In this document: positions 6,881-27,212 of the stretch, one piece after another
Layout of the letters: each line of letters starts with the position of its first letter
How positions within the stretch are numbered: the first letter of the stretch is position 1
Source of the DNA: a virus
IMG/VR virus record: IMGVR_UViG_3300021959_000295
Span: 1-28,190 of that record
Direction: 5' to 3' (one strand)
DNA length: 28,190 nucleotides
Notes under the pieces: generated by a model
Told to the model about the DNA's origin: nothing
Seen by the model: the letters and a program-made list of their open reading frames with translations, nothing else
Databases searched by the model: none
Program-made: the position numbers and the translations under genes

Positions 6881-7219
6881 TTAGGAAGAAAATCCTACCT
6901 TGACAGTTTTTCCATTATGGGGAGAAACATTTAAAGCCATTTCCTTTTGAAAATCGCGATAGGATTTATCATCTTCTTCAAGTGTTTGCAACCACTCATC
7001 AACAGTCATATTTGAAGAAGGATATTCTTTCCATGCCACATTGTTTTCACAGAAAGCAGCCATTACGAAAGCAACTGCATCTTGCTCACGTTCAACATCA
7101 GAAACAATGTAAGTGTTTCCACCTTTGAACTTCCAGTAAGCATTACCACTTGAGAATTTTCCATCCTCTGCATGTGCGCCATAATTTTCCAGAACTTGAG
7201 TGTGAACTACAAAAGTCAT
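6881..7219 (-). CDS. Hypothetical protein, only minus-strand gene
   Basis: A 112-residue soluble, acidic protein that I cannot assign to a function. The N-terminus (MTFVVHTQVLENYGAHAEDGKF) is followed by an aromatic/Gly strand (AYWKFKGGNTYIVSD) and an Ala/Val-rich helix, giving the look of a small alpha/beta domain; no membrane segment, signal peptide or known catalytic motif is seen. The start is preceded on the minus strand by GAGAAAGAGAGAATCAT. It is transcribed towards gp23 and faces the gp23 terminator. A TTGACA sits upstream on the minus strand (7274-7279). Its orientation against all neighbours and a sigma70-like upstream region suggest early expression, separate from the late head genes. 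Confidence 0.75.
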   Translation of the reverse strand: MTFVVHTQVLENYGAHAEDGKFSSGNAYWKFKGGNTYIVSDVEREQDAVAFVMAAFCENNVAWKEYPSSNMTVDEWLQTLEEDDKSYRDFQKEMALNVSPHNGKTVKVGFSS

Positions 7220-17126: not shown

Positions 17127-17687
17127 ATGCAGAGTTTCAAATCTCACCTTATAAATGAAAGTGCGCTTAGTGCGCTAAGAACTGCGACGAAAGCCCACAA
17201 AGGGCAGTTTAGAAAAAGTGGTGGAGAATATATTGCTCATCCAAAAGAAGTTGCCAAAATAGTTGCTAAGTTTAAACCAAAATCAAAAAATTTATCTGCA
17301 TTAGTTCAAGCAGCATATTTGCATGATACTATAGAAGATACTGATTTATCACATGCTGACTTAGTTAAGCAGTTTGGTGGGTTGGTTGCCAATCTTGTTG
17401 ACCAATTGACCACTAAAAAAGATGATCTTGAAGCAGCAGGTGGTAAGGGTGAGTATATAAAAGATAAGATGGTTAACATGACAAGTTGGGCATTAGTTAT
17501 TAAACTCGCTGATAGACTTGCTAATGTATCTGATATTAAGCAGCAGAAACCAGAATGGCAAAGAAAATATGCTGGTGATACAAAGTTGGCCCTAGACGCT
17601 GTAAAAAAAGATAGGAAACATTTGAGTCCTACACATAAGAAAATTATTAAGAATATAGAAACCATAATAAAACCTTATGTATCATGA
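17127..17687 (+). CDS. SpoT/MESH1-like HD hydrolase (putative ppGpp hydrolase) with capsid-targeting-type leader
   Basis: A 186-residue HD-family protein resembling the hydrolase half of RelA/SpoT and small alarmone hydrolases. Visible residues: H38 in GGEYIAHP, H66-D67 in YLHDTIEDT with the E70-D71 pair, and D129 in IKLADRLANVSD, i.e. the full metal and catalytic set H-HD-ED-D. No synthetase, TGS or ACT domain follows, so a (p)ppGpp-degrading enzyme is the best guess; a different nucleotide pyrophosphate substrate is possible. The leader MQSFKSHLINE ends in I-N-E, a predicted gp21 cut site, and precedes the HD fold. It starts at the base after the regA stop and overlaps the next gene. Family is confident; delivery into the host with the DNA is inferred. 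Confidence 0.85.
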   Translation: MQSFKSHLINESALSALRTATKAHKGQFRKSGGEYIAHPKEVAKIVAKFKPKSKNLSALVQAAYLHDTIEDTDLSHADLVKQFGGLVANLVDQLTTKKDDLEAAGGKGEYIKDKMVNMTSWALVIKLADRLANVSDIKQQKPEWQRKYAGDTKLALDAVKKDRKHLSPTHKKIIKNIETIIKPYVS

Positions 17688-18041: not shown

Positions 18042-19265
18042 ATGAAAAGTTTTATATCTCATTTAAATGAAAGTATGTTAGAAAAACTTTTAACTATGAA
18101 AGTTAGAAAGTCTATTAAAAACGCTGGTGGTAAAATCTATCAAATTGGTGGTGTAGTTCGTGATGAACTACTTGGAAAGGTTTCAAAAGACTTAGACTTA
18201 ATCGTTGTCGGTGTAGAACTAAGCGATCTAGAAAAAATATTAAAGCCTCACGGTAAAGTGAATATGGTTGGCAAATCTTTTGGTATTCTGAAATTTGTAC
18301 CAACAGGTTCAACAGAAGAAGAAGATGTTGATATTTCAGTACCAAGAGTTGACTCTAAGAGTACTGGTGCTGGTCATAAAGATTTTGAAGTACAGTTAGG
18401 AAAAGGTATTACTTTACAACAAGATCAGTTAAGAAGAGATTTTTGGATAAATCAATTGGCTAAAGATGTTGATACTGGAGAAATTATTGACACTGATGGC
18501 AAGGGTATGAAAGATATTAAGAATAAAGAAATTCGTATGATCAGTCCTACTTCATTTGAAGATGATCCTTTAAGAATGTTAAGAGCCATTCAATTCGCGG
18601 CTAGGTTTGAATTTAAAATTGAAAAAAATACCTTCAAGGAAATGAAAAAACAAGCGCATACTATTTCATCAGTTTCTTCTGATAGATTTAATGAAGAATT
18701 TAAAAAACTTTTCACCAAATCAAAAAAACCATCAATCGGTGTAAAACTTTTATTTGAAAGTGGATTGATAAAGCATCTATTCCCAAAAGCATCTATTAAA
18801 GACATTAATTTAAAAGCATTAGATAAACTAGAAACTTTTGATGGGTTTAATAAAAACTATGGTGCTTTTATAGGAATGGTTCTAATGAGTTATAAGCAAG
18901 ACGCTGGTAAAATTGCCAAGGCTGGAATGAAATTATCTAATATTGATTCTAAAGCAGTTCAATCTGTAACTTCATACAAAGATATGGATTTAGTTAAATT
19001 AGTTGGATGGGCTAAAGATAACGATATTAAATCTGTTGATGCTTATCTTACCGCTATAGGAAAACCAACAGTATCATCAAAATTAAAAGGTGTTAAATAT
19101 CTTTCAATTAAAGAACTACCTATAAATGGAAAAGATGTTTCTCAATTGGGATTTAAAGGTAAAAGTATAGGTGATGCCTTACAATCCGCATTAGATTTTT
19201 CTATTAAGACTAATAAAACAAGTAAAAATGATCTTCTTAAATATATAAATAGTAGGAACAAATGA
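18042..19265 (+). CDS. CCA-adding/poly(A) polymerase-family nucleotidyltransferase with capsid-targeting-type leader
   Basis: A 407-residue class II tRNA nucleotidyltransferase homologue. Visible: motif A QIGGVVRDELLG (34-45) with the metal-binding DLD (50-52), the second acidic strand EDVDISVPR (95-102), motif B LRRDFWINQLA (130-140), and the EDDPLRMLRAIQFAARF nucleotide-binding helix region (173-189), followed by a helical C-terminal half. All active-site residues appear intact. In the family these enzymes add or repair the 3' CCA of tRNAs (or add poly(A)). The leader MKSFISHLNE ends in L-N-E, a predicted gp21 site. No tRNA gene is in the window. The C-terminal half is unlike the usual bacterial body as far as I can see, so template specificity is open. 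Confidence 0.88.
   Translation: MKSFISHLNESMLEKLLTMKVRKSIKNAGGKIYQIGGVVRDELLGKVSKDLDLIVVGVELSDLEKILKPHGKVNMVGKSFGILKFVPTGSTEEEDVDISVPRVDSKSTGAGHKDFEVQLGKGITLQQDQLRRDFWINQLAKDVDTGEIIDTDGKGMKDIKNKEIRMISPTSFEDDPLRMLRAIQFAARFEFKIEKNTFKEMKKQAHTISSVSSDRFNEEFKKLFTKSKKPSIGVKLLFESGLIKHLFPKASIKDINLKALDKLETFDGFNKNYGAFIGMVLMSYKQDAGKIAKAGMKLSNIDSKAVQSVTSYKDMDLVKLVGWAKDNDIKSVDAYLTAIGKPTVSSKLKGVKYLSIKELPINGKDVSQLGFKGKSIGDALQSALDFSIKTNKTSKNDLLKYINSRNK
19244..19251 (+). promoter_or_regulatory. T4-type late promoter box (TATAAATA) inside the end of the nucleotidyltransferase gene
   Basis: An exact TATAAATA (TATATAAATA) overlaps the last codons of the nucleotidyltransferase gene and lies 30 bases before the 19281 gene, which has a strong AAGGAG. 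It probably boosts the second half of the late unit. Confidence 0.55.
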
Positions 19266-19514: not shown

Positions 19515-19783
19515 TCAAGTTTAAAATATTTATAACTGATGAGTATCAGAGAGATTACAAAAAAGAAAGAAAAAACTATCTTGGAACTCCAGAACAGATG
19601 GAGAGAAACGCCGCTAGAAAACGCGCTAGAAGAAAGATGGAAAAAGAGGGTAAGGCAGAGCCTTTTGATGGGCGAGATATTCATCACAAAGATGGTGACC
19701 CACTCAATAATGATCCAAAAAACTTATCAAGTGTAACTGTTCATTATAATCGCAAAGAGCCAAGGTTGCGAGATAAAAAATGA
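19511..19783 (+). CDS. HNH-like small protein
   Basis: A 90-residue basic protein. Its C-terminal half contains GRDIHHKDGDPLNNDPKNLSSVTVHYNRK, which has the H-H...N...N...H/N order of a minimal HNH (beta-beta-alpha metal) motif: H58-H59, N66-N67 and N72 by count, with no zinc-cysteine pairs. The N-terminal half is Lys/Arg/Glu-rich and helical (RNAARKRARRKMEKEGK). Proteins of this type occur in phages as nicking endonucleases or simply as DNA-binding virion parts. The start MIKFKIFITDE is reminiscent of the capsid-targeting leaders but has ITD-E instead of I-x-E. It overlaps genes on both sides, so it is not an isolated homing insertion. Confidence 0.7.
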   Translation: MIKFKIFITDEYQRDYKKERKNYLGTPEQMERNAARKRARRKMEKEGKAEPFDGRDIHHKDGDPLNNDPKNLSSVTVHYNRKEPRLRDKK

Positions 19784-20550
19784 CTAGAAAATTTTTTATG
19801 GATTGTGAAAGTCTAGATTGGAATGATACTTTTGCTCTCAGTTATTTTTTTTCTGAAGTATCCGCTTTAGCCTATCACGATGGAACTAAAGCAAAAAGAG
19901 AGTTATCAAAATTAGGTTTCAAATCATATAAATTTTTAGAGAATGATGGCGCACAATGTCATATCTTTTCAGATAAAGATAATATTATTGTTGCTTTTAG
20001 AGGTACAGAACCAACAGAGTTTTCAGATGTTAAAGCAGATTTACTTGCATTTAAAAGAAAATCTAAAACTGAGGGTATGGTTCATATGGGATTTAAAATA
20101 GAATTAAGAAAACTTTGGTCTGATATTGAAGCACTACTTCAAAAAAGTAAAAGAAAACAACTTTGGGTTACTGGTCATTCTCTTGGTGGTGCTATGGCAA
20201 CACTATGTGCATCTAGACTTGAAGAAAAAAATCCCATATTATTTACATATGGTTCACCAAGAGTTGGTGGTAAAGAATTTTGTGTAGGTATGGATGTTGA
20301 GCATTATAGATTTAGGAATAATAATGATATTGTGCCAACAGTTCCTTTATGGATAATGGGATATAGGCATCACGGTACAGAGAGATATATTAATCATTAT
20401 GGAAATATTCGTAGATTGTCCTTTTGGCAAAAGATAAAGGATTCTTTGAGGGGTAGGTGGTGCGCCATGAAAAATAAACAAATTTTTGATGGAATATATG
20501 ATCATAGTATTGAACATTATTCAAGTAAATTGAAGAAATTTAAAAAATGA
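19780..20550 (+). CDS. Class 3 lipase (alpha/beta hydrolase)
   Basis: A 256-residue class 3 lipase-type enzyme. Visible: the oxyanion-hole strand IIVAFRGTEP (69-78), nucleophile elbow VTGHSLGG with S134, LFTYGSPRVG (154-163), the acid NNDIVPTVP with D183, and the histidine in GYRHHGTERY (H197 or H198). All triad members are present. Family members hydrolyse triacylglycerols or phospholipids. No signal peptide or membrane segment is seen, so it acts in the cytoplasm, from within the virion, or after lysis. It overlaps the HNH-like gene (ATGA) and the following membrane protein gene (ATGA). Lysis or membrane attack is a reasonable but unproven role; lipid recycling is an alternative. Confidence 0.87.
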   Translation: MTRKFFMDCESLDWNDTFALSYFFSEVSALAYHDGTKAKRELSKLGFKSYKFLENDGAQCHIFSDKDNIIVAFRGTEPTEFSDVKADLLAFKRKSKTEGMVHMGFKIELRKLWSDIEALLQKSKRKQLWVTGHSLGGAMATLCASRLEEKNPILFTYGSPRVGGKEFCVGMDVEHYRFRNNNDIVPTVPLWIMGYRHHGTERYINHYGNIRRLSFWQKIKDSLRGRWCAMKNKQIFDGIYDHSIEHYSSKLKKFKK

Positions 20551-20825: not shown

Positions 20826-21223
20826 AAACATTCAAAAATTTTATAATAGAAGATAAATGTGATTTAGTAGGTATGAAACAAATCAAAGCATTTGAATCTA
20901 TTGTTGATAAATTATTCAAAAAATATGGAATTGATTTCAAATTCACTCGTCATTTTGGTGATAGGATGGGAGATGATAGAAATACACCTTGTATCTCTAT
21001 GAAAGAGTTAGCAGAATTTATAAAAAAGATTTACGCAAGACAAGGTAAGTCACTCAAAGGTGTGGCTGGTGCTGAAGCGGTAATTAAAGATATGCAATCT
21101 GATTTGAATATTCCAGTAGCAGTTAAATATGATCAAAGAAAAGATGAATTTGATGTTGTAATGAAAACAATTATGCGTAAGAAAAACTTTCATACGCCAG
21201 ATAAGGTTATAAAATATGCGTAA
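20822..21223 (+). CDS. Hypothetical protein with capsid-targeting-type leader
   Basis: A 133-residue protein beginning MKTFKNFIIE, the closest match in the window to T4's MKTYQEFIAE after the 17684 gene; the I-I-E would be the gp21 cut. The rest (FTRHFGDRMGDDRN near residue 41, then SMKELAEFIKKIYARQ and VVMKTIMRKKNFHTPDK) is compact alpha/beta. The H-x-x-D/E-R start, helix, and paired strands are weakly like small toxin-type or RelE-like folds, but I cannot assign a family. Similar proteins with the ending TIMRKKNFxTP appear in T4-like phages as I recall. It overlaps both neighbours. Confidence 0.72.
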   Translation: MKTFKNFIIEDKCDLVGMKQIKAFESIVDKLFKKYGIDFKFTRHFGDRMGDDRNTPCISMKELAEFIKKIYARQGKSLKGVAGAEAVIKDMQSDLNIPVAVKYDQRKDEFDVVMKTIMRKKNFHTPDKVIKYA

Positions 21224-21689
21224 GTATAGTCAAGTTCTCTTAGAGTTAAGGACTACTACACCAAAACCTAAAGATACTCTTGGTATCTCAAGAGTAGATA
21301 TGCCCCAAGTTCGTTCAGCAGATTATGATGAACTTATAGAGTATTTAAAAAATTTAGGTATAAAAATGGAAAGAAAAGAAGTCAAAGCCAAAAGACTACG
21401 AGCCACCCAATCTGATTTTAATAAAGATAAAATAGTTAAGGCTATGGGCCGAATAAAAACTATTGGTCAAGCAAAACCACTTCTGGTTTCTTCAGATAAC
21501 TATATTGTTGATGGTCATCACCGTTGGTTGGCGGCTAGAAATGGTGGTGCATCAATACCTATTATGCAATCTGATGTAAAAATAAAAATATTACTTAGAG
21601 CAATAAAAAAATTCCCTAAGTCTTTTACTAAGACGATAGATGAAGAAGAAATATATAAAATGGAATGGCGTAGAACATTTTCGGATTAA
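21216..21689 (+). CDS. ParB/sulfiredoxin-fold protein with capsid-targeting-type leader
   Basis: A 157-residue basic protein. The middle contains LRATQSDFNKDKIVKAMGRI followed by GQAKPLLVSSDNYIVDGHHRWLAAR, the ParB-like nuclease/sulfiredoxin signature (a helix, then 'KPLLVS-DNYIVDGHHRW'). These domains bind or cut DNA, or use nucleotides; H98-H99 region by count and R100 are the likely active residues. The leader MRKYSQVLLE fits the M-x-x-F/Y-x-x-x-L-x-E pattern with L-L-E. No helix-turn-helix is seen after the domain, so it is not a full partition ParB. It overlaps the previous gene by 8 bases. Confidence 0.75.
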   Translation: MRKYSQVLLELRTTTPKPKDTLGISRVDMPQVRSADYDELIEYLKNLGIKMERKEVKAKRLRATQSDFNKDKIVKAMGRIKTIGQAKPLLVSSDNYIVDGHHRWLAARNGGASIPIMQSDVKIKILLRAIKKFPKSFTKTIDEEEIYKMEWRRTFSD

Positions 21690-21692
21690 ATT

Positions 21693-22382
21693 ATGAAATA
21701 CTTTATATCAGCACCTTTTGGAAACTATTTAAAACTTCCTAAAGCAATTAGCGTAACTGGAAGTTGGACCGTTGAAAAAAGAGAAGGACTTATTCCCCAA
21801 ATTTTTAAAACTCTTAGATATAAAAATGGTGGATGGATTAATAAAATTGGATTGCGAAATGCTGGAATATATGAGGGTTTAAAAAGAACAAACTCTACAG
21901 ATGTGTTGAGCCTTGCCGCAATAAACGAATATGATTGGCTACATCTGTCTCGTATAGTAGATAAAAATTCATCTGTTGAGATTAATATAAGTTGTCCAAA
22001 CCTTGATAAAGATGTGGGTGCGGTAAATTTATCTGGTTTTGATTTATTTCCTAAGAGTGAAAGAAAATGGTGTATATGTAAAATACCGCCTACTGCGACA
22101 GAATGTCTCATAGACAAGATAGTAGATTTAGGATATAATCAAATACATGCAAGCAACACTTTGTACTCTTTGAATGGGGGCCAAAGTGGAAAAATTTTAA
22201 AACCATATACTACAAGGATTATAGAATATATAAAGAGAAAACATCCTAGCGTTACTGTAATCGCTGGTGGTGGGGTTACAAATAAGGATGATGCAGAATT
22301 TTATTTTGATAAGGGCGCAGACTATGTAAGTCTAGGAACAGTATGTTTCACTCCTTGGAAAATAAAAAACATAATTTCTTAA
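21693..22382 (+). CDS. Dihydroorotate dehydrogenase-like flavoprotein (short)
   Basis: A 229-residue TIM-barrel protein like class 1 dihydroorotate dehydrogenases. Visible: SAPFGNYL near the N-terminus, EINISCPN (97-103) with the cysteine C101 at the catalytic-base position of class 1A enzymes, CKIPP (129-133) with the FMN-binding lysine K130, HASNTL (152-157), GGQSGKILKP (162-171), and the FMN phosphate site IAGGGV plus KGADYVSLGT. Family members have ~300 residues and carry an N-terminal part that is shortened here, so activity is uncertain. In bacteria the enzyme makes orotate for pyrimidines. A phage copy could support nucleotide supply or act on another substrate. Last gene of the late unit, followed by a T9 run. 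Confidence 0.8.
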   Translation: MKYFISAPFGNYLKLPKAISVTGSWTVEKREGLIPQIFKTLRYKNGGWINKIGLRNAGIYEGLKRTNSTDVLSLAAINEYDWLHLSRIVDKNSSVEINISCPNLDKDVGAVNLSGFDLFPKSERKWCICKIPPTATECLIDKIVDLGYNQIHASNTLYSLNGGQSGKILKPYTTRIIEYIKRKHPSVTVIAGGGVTNKDDAEFYFDKGADYVSLGTVCFTPWKIKNIIS

Positions 22383-22468: not shown

Positions 22469-22519
22469 ATGCGAATAATCGGTCCCATTACAATCTTGCT
22501 TGATCAAAAGGAGATAACA

Positions 22520-23002
22520 ATGACAGGCTTACAAACACTCTTTCCACGTTCATCTTTCGTGGGTTTTGACCATTTATTCAATGAACTAGAGTTCACTGCT
22601 AAACATGCTCAAGATCACTATCCACCACACAATATTATTAAAGCAGGAGAATCAGATTATTTGATTGAACTTGCTATTGCTGGATTTTCACAAGATGAAA
22701 TTAATGTTGAAGTAAAAGATAGAACTTTGACAGTAACTGGTGAACACGTTTCTAAAGGTAGAGAATTTATCCATCGTGGCATTTCAACAAAGAAATTCAA
22801 ACGAACCTTTAGGCTGTCTGAACACGTACAAGTAAACGGAGCAAATATTCTAGATGGTATTCTGGCAATTGAATTGCAGTACGTCATTCCAGAATCAATG
22901 CGTCCTCGTAAAATTAAAATTGGCAATTACGAGGAAAACTCAAATGCAACACATACTAACAACGCACAACTTCTTAACGAGAGGTCTAACAGGTCTCTTT
23001 GA
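22520..23002 (+). CDS. hsp20: Small heat shock protein Hsp20
   Basis: A 160-residue small heat shock protein. The alpha-crystallin domain runs from ESDYLIELAIAGF through INVEVKDRTLTVTGEH to the G-I-L-A-I-E-L motif and a PRKIKI end. The start is ATG at 22520, eight bases after AAAGGAG; an upstream in-frame ATG at 22469 directly abuts AAGGGG and would add 17 residues that look unlike the family. Hsp20 genes are a marked feature of marine T4-like phages. They hold unfolding proteins soluble and may help capsid assembly or protect host proteins. Its 3' end overlaps the next gene by 59 bases. Confidence 0.93.
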   Translation: MTGLQTLFPRSSFVGFDHLFNELEFTAKHAQDHYPPHNIIKAGESDYLIELAIAGFSQDEINVEVKDRTLTVTGEHVSKGREFIHRGISTKKFKRTFRLSEHVQVNGANILDGILAIELQYVIPESMRPRKIKIGNYEENSNATHTNNAQLLNERSNRSL

Positions 23003-24710: not shown

Positions 24711-27212
24711 TTGAAATCATTTTATACAAACGTAGCCAGATATGGCAATTCACTCTTGTACCGTGGTTATAATGACCACGGTATTCGTATTGAGAAACGT
24801 GTTAAATTTAAACCAAAACTCTTTGTTCGCAGCAAAGAACAAAATACGAGATGGAAAACTCTTGAAGGACTTTCTGTTGCTCCAGTAGAATTTGAGTCTA
24901 TGAGGGCGGCAAAAGAATGGTTAGAGACTTACAAGGATATGGATAATGTCAAAATCTATGGCATGACTAATTATATTCAACAGTTTATAACAAGCGCGTT
25001 TCCAGACGAAATACAGTTTAATCGTAAAACAATCAATGTCGCAAACTTAGATATTGAAGTTGCATCAGATGACGGATTCCCACATCCAGATGCTGCTGAT
25101 TATCCTGTTATATCAATTTGCCATAAGTCATCAACTTCTAATGTTTATCACGTTTGGGGTCTGGGTGAATATGATGTTGATAAACGCGAAAACCAAGATT
25201 TGATTGTCCAGTATCGTCATTGTAAAAATGAATTAGAATTATTAGCAAAGTACATGGAATTTTGGACTAAGAATCCACCAGATGTTATAACTGGTTGGTA
25301 TATTAAAATGTTTGATATGCCTTATCTAATCAATCGCGTTACTAAAATTGCTGGTAATAGTGTCGCAAAAAAGTTTTCTCCATGGGGTTTGATTAGTGAA
25401 CGTAATATAAATGTTGCTGGTCAAAATCATAAACATTATGAAATAACTGGTATTTCCCAATTAGATTATATGGATTTATTTAAAAAGTTTGGGTATTCAT
25501 ATGGAACCCAAGCATCTTACAAATTAGATCATATTGCTCATACTGTTCTTGGTGAGAAAAAACTATCATATGAAGAGCATGGAACACTTCATACTTTATA
25601 TAAAAATGACCATCAATTATTCATTGATTATAATATCAAGGATGTTTACTTAGTAGATAAGATTGATGAAAAAATGGATTTGATTACTCTTGCACTTACT
25701 ATGGCATATCGTGGGGGTGTGAACTATGAGGCAACTCTTGGAACAACTGCCATATGGGACTCAATCATATATCGTGAACTGAATAAACAACACGTTGCTA
25801 TACCACCAAATGAAAATACAATCAAATCACCATATCCAGGAGGTTACGTTAAAGAACCTCAAGTTGGGTTACATGATTGGGTAGTTTCATTTGATTTGAA
25901 TTCACTATATCCTAATTTGATTATTCAATATAATATGTCACCAGAAACTTTGGTAGTTGACCTTGAAAACACATATCAATCAGGTGTTGAATATTATATG
26001 AATAATGCACCAGATATAAAAAATGACCTTTCGGTTGCAGCGAATGGATCAACTTATACTAGGCAAAGACAAGGCATTGTACCTCAAATTATTGCAGACT
26101 ATATGTTAGAGCGTAAAGCGACTAAGAAGTTGATGTTAGAGGCAATGCAAAAAAATCAAGATAATCCATCTACTGAACTTGATAGGGAAATCAATCAACT
26201 TGAAAATCGGCAAATGGCAATTAAAATTCTATTGAATTCTCTTTATGGTGCTTTGGGTAATGCTTACTTTAGGTATTTTGATATGCGAGTTGCAGAAGGT
26301 ATTACTCTGTCTGGACAGTTAGCAATTCAATGGGCAGAACGCGCCATAAATGATGAAATGAATAAAGTACTTAAAACCGATAAGTTTGATTATGTAATCG
26401 CTATTGATACTGATTCACTCTATATCAACTTTGGACCTTTTATAGATAAATTGAAACCTAAAGACCCTGTTAAAGCATTGGATAAAATTTGTGCCGATCA
26501 TTTTGAAAAGATTTTAGAACAAGCATATGATAAACTATTTAATCAGATGAATGCATATACAAATCGTATGGTTATGGAAAGAGAAGCGATTGCAGATCGT
26601 GGTATCTGGACAGCCAAAAAAAGATATTTACTAAATGTTCATAATAATGAAGGTGTTCAATACGCAGAACCAAAATTAAAGATCATGGGTATTGAGGCCA
26701 TTAAATCAAGCACACCTCAAGTAGTGCGAGACAAGTTTATGCAGTCGTTTAAAATCATTATGTCTGGATCAGAAGAAAAAACTAGAAAGTTTATTGCTGA
26801 TTTTAAGAAAGAGTTTAAATCTCTGCCACCAGAAGATATATCTTTTCCAAGAGGTGTTAGTGATATCGTGAAATGGAGTGATAGGAAAACTATTTACAAA
26901 AAAGGTACACCAATTCATGTGAGAGGTAGTTTACTTTATAATCATCAAATAAAAGATAAGGCATTAGGAAAAACTTACGCACTTATTCAGAATGGTGAAA
27001 AAATTAAATTTTGTTATCTAAAGATGCCTAACCCTTTAAAGGAAAATGTTATATCATTTCCAGATTACATTCCAAATGAATTTAATTTACACAAATATGT
27101 AAATTATGATATTCAATTTGAAAAGACTTTTGTAGAACCAATTACACCAATTTTAGATGCAATAGGTTGGTCTGTTGAAGAAAGTTCTTCTTTAGAAGAT
27201 TTTTTCTGTTAA
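24711..27212 (+). CDS. 43: Family B DNA polymerase gp43
   Basis: An 833-residue replicative polymerase; T4 gp43 has 898. The N-terminus MKSFYTNVARYGN matches MKEFYISIETVGN. 3'-5' exonuclease motifs: NLDIEVAS (D114, E116), GWYIKMFDMPY (D202; the usual Asn earlier in this motif is Tyr), IDYNIKDVYLVD (Y307, D311). Polymerase motifs: A FDLNSLYP (D395), B KILLNSLYG (505-513), C IDTDSLY (D566, D568). The C-terminal SSLEDFF is a clamp-binding tail like that of T4 gp43. The start is TTG at 24711, seven bases after GGAG, with no ATG available; a TTG may limit its level. A sigma70-like promoter lies directly upstream. Confidence 0.97.
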   Translation: MKSFYTNVARYGNSLLYRGYNDHGIRIEKRVKFKPKLFVRSKEQNTRWKTLEGLSVAPVEFESMRAAKEWLETYKDMDNVKIYGMTNYIQQFITSAFPDEIQFNRKTINVANLDIEVASDDGFPHPDAADYPVISICHKSSTSNVYHVWGLGEYDVDKRENQDLIVQYRHCKNELELLAKYMEFWTKNPPDVITGWYIKMFDMPYLINRVTKIAGNSVAKKFSPWGLISERNINVAGQNHKHYEITGISQLDYMDLFKKFGYSYGTQASYKLDHIAHTVLGEKKLSYEEHGTLHTLYKNDHQLFIDYNIKDVYLVDKIDEKMDLITLALTMAYRGGVNYEATLGTTAIWDSIIYRELNKQHVAIPPNENTIKSPYPGGYVKEPQVGLHDWVVSFDLNSLYPNLIIQYNMSPETLVVDLENTYQSGVEYYMNNAPDIKNDLSVAANGSTYTRQRQGIVPQIIADYMLERKATKKLMLEAMQKNQDNPSTELDREINQLENRQMAIKILLNSLYGALGNAYFRYFDMRVAEGITLSGQLAIQWAERAINDEMNKVLKTDKFDYVIAIDTDSLYINFGPFIDKLKPKDPVKALDKICADHFEKILEQAYDKLFNQMNAYTNRMVMEREAIADRGIWTAKKRYLLNVHNNEGVQYAEPKLKIMGIEAIKSSTPQVVRDKFMQSFKIIMSGSEEKTRKFIADFKKEFKSLPPEDISFPRGVSDIVKWSDRKTIYKKGTPIHVRGSLLYNHQIKDKALGKTYALIQNGEKIKFCYLKMPNPLKENVISFPDYIPNEFNLHKYVNYDIQFEKTFVEPITPILDAIGWSVEESSSLEDFFC

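Follow-up and report, generated by a model that had tools for sequence, protein, structure and literature searches.

Results

Gene content of the locus

The window, a stretch of 28,190 nt of viral DNA, carries at positions 21693–22382 (plus strand) an intact open reading frame with an ATG start, which encodes a compact dihydroorotate dehydrogenase (DHODH)-like protein of 229 aa, hereafter the FGNY type, as assigned from the reading frame, the profile match, the fold model and the tree. The upstream ORF (21216–21689, plus strand), ParB-like according to PHROGs, ends 3 nt before this gene, and judging from the sequence both are likely part of the same transcription unit. Downstream follow an Hsp20 gene (22469–23002, plus strand, profile match) and the T4-like gp43 family B DNA polymerase (24711–27212, plus strand). 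The DHODH-like gene sits between clamp, clamp-loader and gp46-47-like genes on the one side and hsp20 and the gp43 polymerase on the other; the original prediction had placed it in a late operon beside suspected injected proteins, and as read from the gene order this has to be corrected to a position among replication genes. Further upstream, an HD_4 hydrolase of the RelA/SpoT-type HD (17127–17687), a poly(A) polymerase/CCA-transferase-like protein (18042–19265) and a class 3 lipase (19780–20550) were observed. The phage is T4-like, its nearest named record being Phage C48C1 (57% in the DNA polymerase, 66% in the capsid protein), and neither pyrF nor thyX was found near its DHODH-like gene.

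Protein features and predicted fold

The window protein matched the Pfam profile DHO_dh (PF01180) with an E-value of 3.3e-13 and a score of 49.9 bits (cut-off 27), so that the similarity is not due to chance. The NCBIfam DHODH models gave weak matches, far under their equivalog cut-offs, and the nearest relatives with a solved structure are DHODH-B chains. Along the plus strand, the PFGNY motif (residues 8–12, 21714–21728) marks the end of barrel strand 1 in the alignment and is followed by the invariant Asn50 (21840–21842), a substrate ring contact according to general knowledge of the family. The catalytic loop NISCPN (residues 98–103, 21984–22001) contains Asn98, Cys101 and Asn103, with N, C, P and N being invariant, and KIPP (residues 130–133, 22080–22091) contributes the invariant Lys130 as an FMN contact. 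In HxxNT (residues 152–156, 22146–22160) the alignment assigns Asn155 and Thr156 as substrate contacts and His152 as specific to the FGNY clade. The FMN/phosphate loop is represented by GGQSG (residues 162–166, 22176–22190; translation and alignment), by GGG after strand 7 (residues 192–194, 22266–22274; alignment), whose first Gly is again clade-specific, and by SLGT at strand 8 (residues 213–216, 22329–22340; translation, model and alignment). NISCPN, KIPP, GGQSG and the FMN phosphate loop, which had been predicted to be kept, were thus all located in the translation.

The protein is 76–82 aa shorter than most of the listed class 1 chains (305–311 aa), in line with the predicted shortening, yet its model has eight barrel strands. 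With respect to model and alignment, residues have been lost at both termini, from helix 1, between beta4 and beta5 and from the loop that follows Asn155. The N-terminal membrane/quinone helices of class 2 are absent, the protein starting at strand 1.

Structure prediction with AlphaFold2 was performed on the protein alone, from an input alignment of the window protein, viral rows and one planctomycete row, and gave a model with a pLDDT of 87.7, a pTM of 0.87 and eight barrel strands. Comparison by Foldseek and VIA-align identified DHODH-B as the best structural match (Z 23.5, rmsd 2.5 Å over 225 residues); the model could also be superposed on DHODH classes 1A, 1B and 2 and on DPD, the DPD/PreA domains fitting almost equally well (Z 22.7). 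As modelled, the compact protein is a full FMN-type TIM barrel. The proposed DHODH-like flavoprotein is borne out by this DHODH fold and by the PF01180 match over cut-off, and the lack of an FMN site, named beforehand as an outcome that would speak against it, was not seen in the predicted, FMN-free structure.

Active site

For the active-site analysis 30 viral, 27 planctomycete, 16 class 1, 4 class 2, 4 PreA and 3 PRK07565-like sequences were aligned. Asn50, Asn98, Cys101, Asn103, Lys130, Asn155 and Thr156 were identical in all 57 FGNY-type rows of phages and planctomycetes. The first five are the equivalents of Asn67, Asn127, Cys130, Asn132 and Lys164 of L. lactis DHODA, and Asn155/Thr156 correspond to its Asn193/Ser194. 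Pro8, Phe9, Gly10, Asn11, Tyr12, Trp48, His152 and Gly192 were likewise invariant in the aligned FGNY-type rows. The PFGNY motif is constant in phage and planctomycete members, with a single YGNY variant in a planctomycete outside the 57 aligned rows.

The position of the class 1 Lys43, which is Lys in 16/16 class 1 rows, is occupied by Gly in 57/57 FGNY-type rows (Gly23, 21759–21761, plus strand; VTGSWT..EKREG vs TKSxT..xxRxG). The class 2 rows have Gly at this position too, but carry a lysine in the strand-1 loop (4/4), and this column corresponds to Gly10 in all FGNY-type rows. Consequently, with Gly23 and Gly10 both known lysine placements are empty. In a Rhizopus class 1A DHODH the K45A variant fails to complement, so that the lysine is essential there (PMC10395836), and it is the position of this essential lysine that is Gly in every FGNY-type member. 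The conserved motifs had been recognized correctly from the sequence of the window, but the invariant absence of the class 1 catalytic lysine had been missed.

Family, selection and phylogeny

The FGNY-type family is represented in about 67 marine viral loci, nearly all of them intact and encoding 221–244 aa. In the scans of viral contigs 65 loci were collected in the wider search, and later scans added L265, L285 and L286. Members translated in full mostly share the same start, and dN/dS was about 0.05–0.18 in those pairs where it could be computed, indicating purifying selection on the compact protein. A truncated single-gene fragment was rejected as an explanation, since the viral loci, about 67 in number, share their compact form with about 29 genomes of planctomycetes.

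In a maximum-likelihood tree of 84 sequences, from which class 1A rows were absent, the viral and planctomycete FGNY-type proteins shared one branch with 100/100 support, separate from the class 1, class 2, PreA and PRK07565-like proteins; long branches meet in this tree, so that it gives the position of the FGNY clade with respect to classes 1 and 2 only approximately. The 29 marine viral rows formed a single 100/100 group. On the basis of these comparisons, the FGNY type is a separate DHODH-like clade common to phages and bacteria and not merely a shortened class 1A, 1B or 2 enzyme. The view of a shortened DHODH was therefore right as to the relationship, whereas the separate clade shared with bacteria had gone unnoticed. 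A dihydrouridine synthase was rejected, as the Dus profile reached 12.8 bits against a cut-off of 20.4 and covered the C-terminal barrel part only; by this profile comparison the grouping with these enzymes, named beforehand as speaking against the prediction, did not occur.

No FGNY-type gene was found among cultured phages in the phage collection searched, the best match being LR756511, a 595-kb metagenomic phage. Its gene (LR756511.1, locus L081, 6001–6672) is 52% identical to a planctomycete gene and nests with it, LR756511 and planctomycete L082 grouping at 100/98 in the tree; this nesting hints at a planctomycete host or at transfer. Records of Listeria, Enterococcus and gut phages (H2–H15) yielded weak, unannotated matches with 24–28% identity.

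Gene neighbours in other phages

In three contigs (L048, L059/L264 and L265) the gene for OMP decarboxylase, pyrF, lies directly upstream of the FGNY gene and overlaps it. The phage pyrF products belong to PF00215 (E about 1e-25 to 1e-26 in the members tested), and the overlap is a conserved stretch of 13 nt, ATGTTTTTTATAG, located at 7195–7207 in L048, at about 3104–3116 in L264 and at about 8588–8600 in L265. Such a conserved overlap suggests that pyrF and the FGNY gene may be translationally coupled. In L055, L056 and L058 pyrF is found 2.4–3.1 kb upstream, giving six contigs overall with pyrF within 3.1 kb upstream; expressed the other way, 6 of the 19 phage pyrF loci found have an FGNY gene within 8 kb. 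The thirteen further phage pyrF loci (L266, L270–L281) showed no FGNY-type gene within this distance. ThyX and a class II (B12-type) ribonucleotide reductase (nrdJ) are encoded directly upstream of the FGNY gene in L070–L072, and ThyX also occurs near it in L059 and L077–L079. PyrE was searched in 25 viral records, none of which gave a match over cut-off.

Directly downstream of the FGNY gene, a GAPDH-like ORF (assigned by reading) was observed in L019 (3158–4123) and L037 (1712–2677), and a UvdE-family UV-endonuclease gene in L041, L042, L057, L060, L061, L063, L065, L066 and L074. A conserved neighbour acting as functional partner was considered and discarded, since none of the candidates (UvdE, Hsp20, tRNA-synthetase-like and GAPDH-like genes) extends beyond one or a few lineages.

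The planctomycete counterpart

Clear FGNY-type matches (E 1e-49 or better) were obtained in 11/392 planctomycete genomes of a phylum sample. In these 11 genomes all other PF01180 matches over cut-off were PreA-like or PRK07565-like, and a canonical PyrD was present in none. For comparison, a strong PF01180 match (180 bits or more) was present in 51/57 non-FGNY planctomycetes, one split gene included (0/11 vs 51/57: Fisher 8e-9, not corrected for shared ancestry). Second DHODHs in the FGNY genomes were dismissed, the extra PF01180 matches being read as PreA-like (NFSCPHG) or PRK07565-like (ELNIYD).

A similar picture emerged within one family, that of G439. Among its 51 genomes, 23 carry canonical PyrD and 22 the FGNY type (in one case as a fragment where the contig ends), while no genome carries both and 6 carry neither; for this mutual exclusion Fisher's test gave 2.5e-9, not corrected for phylogeny. 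Six of the FGNY genomes consist of about one near-complete contig each and are without canonical PyrD, so that incompleteness does not explain its absence. Furthermore, a PreA-like (NFSCPHG) PF01180 protein was present in 10 genomes of the family; all 10 have the FGNY-type gene and lack canonical PyrD.

PyrE was over cut-off in 11/11 and PyrF in 10/11 of the FGNY planctomycetes of the phylum sample. The PyrK domain PF10418 was detected in 1/11 of them vs 8/10 genomes with canonical PyrD; for the phage, whose host could supply PyrK, this count is indirect. Most FGNY genes of the planctomycetes lie outside pyrimidine operons. In P0002 (L082) alone the FGNY gene lies close to a pyrF ORF, and no PF01180 protein other than its product was detected in the 6.4-Mb genome. 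From the gene contents, the FGNY type stands in for canonical PyrD in a planctomycete group; this replacement evidence concerns relatives that are about 30–35% identical and not the window protein itself.

Discussion

The explanation that we prefer, with a probability of about 0.7, is a compact DHODH of a separate clade which would make orotate toward UMP for phage nucleotides, with activity, substrate and acceptor deduced by comparison. The protein would be a soluble TIM barrel that putatively binds FMN and holds the dihydropyrimidine ring by four Asn residues and Thr156. Cys101 would act as the base and FMN as the hydride acceptor in the oxidation of the ring, and catalysis would have to proceed without the class 1 or class 2 lysine. 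In the infected cell dihydroorotate would presumably be converted to orotate, which host PyrE and then host or phage PyrF could carry on to UMP and phage nucleotide synthesis. The conserved set of ring-binding residues points to a dihydropyrimidine as substrate, and dihydroorotate is favoured by the replacement of PyrD in bacteria and the pairing with pyrF in phages. Since neither an extra domain nor N-terminal helices are present and PF10418 is rare in the FGNY planctomycetes, the electron acceptor is probably other than PyrK or a membrane quinone site. The invariant Gly at both lysine positions counts against a DHODH, as do the window phage, where pyrF and thyX are not near the gene, and the 25 viral records without a PyrE match over cut-off.

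The main rival is a dihydropyrimidine oxidoreductase with another substrate, e.g. a dihydrouracil or dihydrothymine oxidase or reductase, working in pyrimidine salvage or breakdown during infection. The Asn/Thr set together with the Cys would suit any dihydropyrimidine, the active-site lysine is unlike that of DHODH, the DPD/PreA domains superpose nearly as well as DHODH-B, and in the G439 family the PreA-like genomes are all FGNY genomes. Moreover, mould DHODH-like proteins with SCPN and a conserved active site proved to be dihydrouracil oxidases (PMC10395836). We nevertheless consider this reading unlikely, because the FGNY type and canonical PyrD exclude each other where PyrE is retained, which points to orotate just as the phage pairing with pyrF does, PreA is absent from about half of the FGNY genomes of the G439 family, and PreA itself has His at the Asn103 position and is without Asn50.

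A repurposed flavoprotein, for instance one that takes part in regulation or in modifying the bases of DNA or tRNA and is without a role in UMP synthesis, would accommodate the invariable loss of both known active-site lysines, the clade-specific Trp48, His152 and first Gly of GGG, the ParB-like, Hsp20 and DNA polymerase neighbours in the window and the variation of neighbours between phages. With the substrate-binding and catalytic residues invariant, pyrF, thyX and nrdJ as neighbours, PyrD replaced in bacteria and no Dus-like match, it appears quite improbable. Of the two roles originally offered, auxiliary metabolic gene (AMG) or repurposed flavoprotein, the former is thus favoured by the pyrimidine and nucleotide gene neighbours and the planctomycete replacement, and the latter has lost ground. 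That the gene is an ordinary class 1B (or 1A) DHODH, captured from a host, trimmed and in no way distinctive, is hardly credible: the best sequence and fold matches are indeed class 1 enzymes, but the phage and planctomycete proteins form their own fully supported group in a tree without class 1A, the Lys43 position is Gly throughout and PyrK is mostly absent from the FGNY planctomycetes.

Beyond the compact DHODH preferred here, the odds seem even that the FGNY type constitutes a further DHODH class, compact and without a known active-site lysine, on which some planctomycetes rely as their sole DHODH and which marine and huge phages have either acquired or passed on. If the reading as a compact DHODH is right, a minimal form of ~230 residues dispenses with a lysine that is essential in a class 1A enzyme, and this small protein could be used to look afresh at the catalytic needs of a much-studied drug-target family. 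The FGNY type would likewise supply the DHODH step to planctomycetes without canonical PyrD and provide a clear case of phages with two UMP-synthesis steps encoded by overlapping genes. Homology-only annotations of viral DHODHs could be re-sorted with the FGNY clade in view.

Comparison with known systems

The idea of a viral DHODH is not new. Viral pyrDI and pyrF, i.e. a DHODH and an OMP decarboxylase reported by annotation, have already been named AMGs (PMC13288924), and for ocean viruses UMP synthesis is reported as a pathway that AMGs target completely (PMC11360552). In the open-access literature we found no description of the FGNY clade, the lost lysine, the pyrF overlap or the planctomycete PyrD replacement.

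With DPD/PreA and the fungal dihydrouracil oxidase the compact protein shares the barrel and the Cys base; PreA, however, has CPH, is without Asn50 and keeps the Lys that is Gly here, whereas the compact protein has CPN and falls on a separate branch. Class 2 (quinone) DHODH also has Gly at the Lys43 position, but the compact protein lacks the N-terminal quinone-binding helices and the strand-1 loop lysine (Gly10) and has Cys as base, while E. coli PyrD, a class 2 enzyme, uses Ser. Class 1A (fumarate) DHODH shares the EKREG-like stretch after strand 2, the Cys base and the lack of an extra domain, but its essential lysine is absent from the compact protein, and the tree contained no class 1A rows. 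Class 1B PyrD (L. lactis DHODB, 1EP1/5KSW) is the best sequence match and among the best structural matches, sharing the FMN TIM barrel, the NxSCPN loop with its Cys base, the Asn quartet, the Lys164 equivalent and GGxSG. Compared with class 1B, the compact protein is about 75 aa shorter, has Gly at Lys43, belongs to a separate clade and is accompanied by a PyrK domain in 1/11 FGNY planctomycetes.
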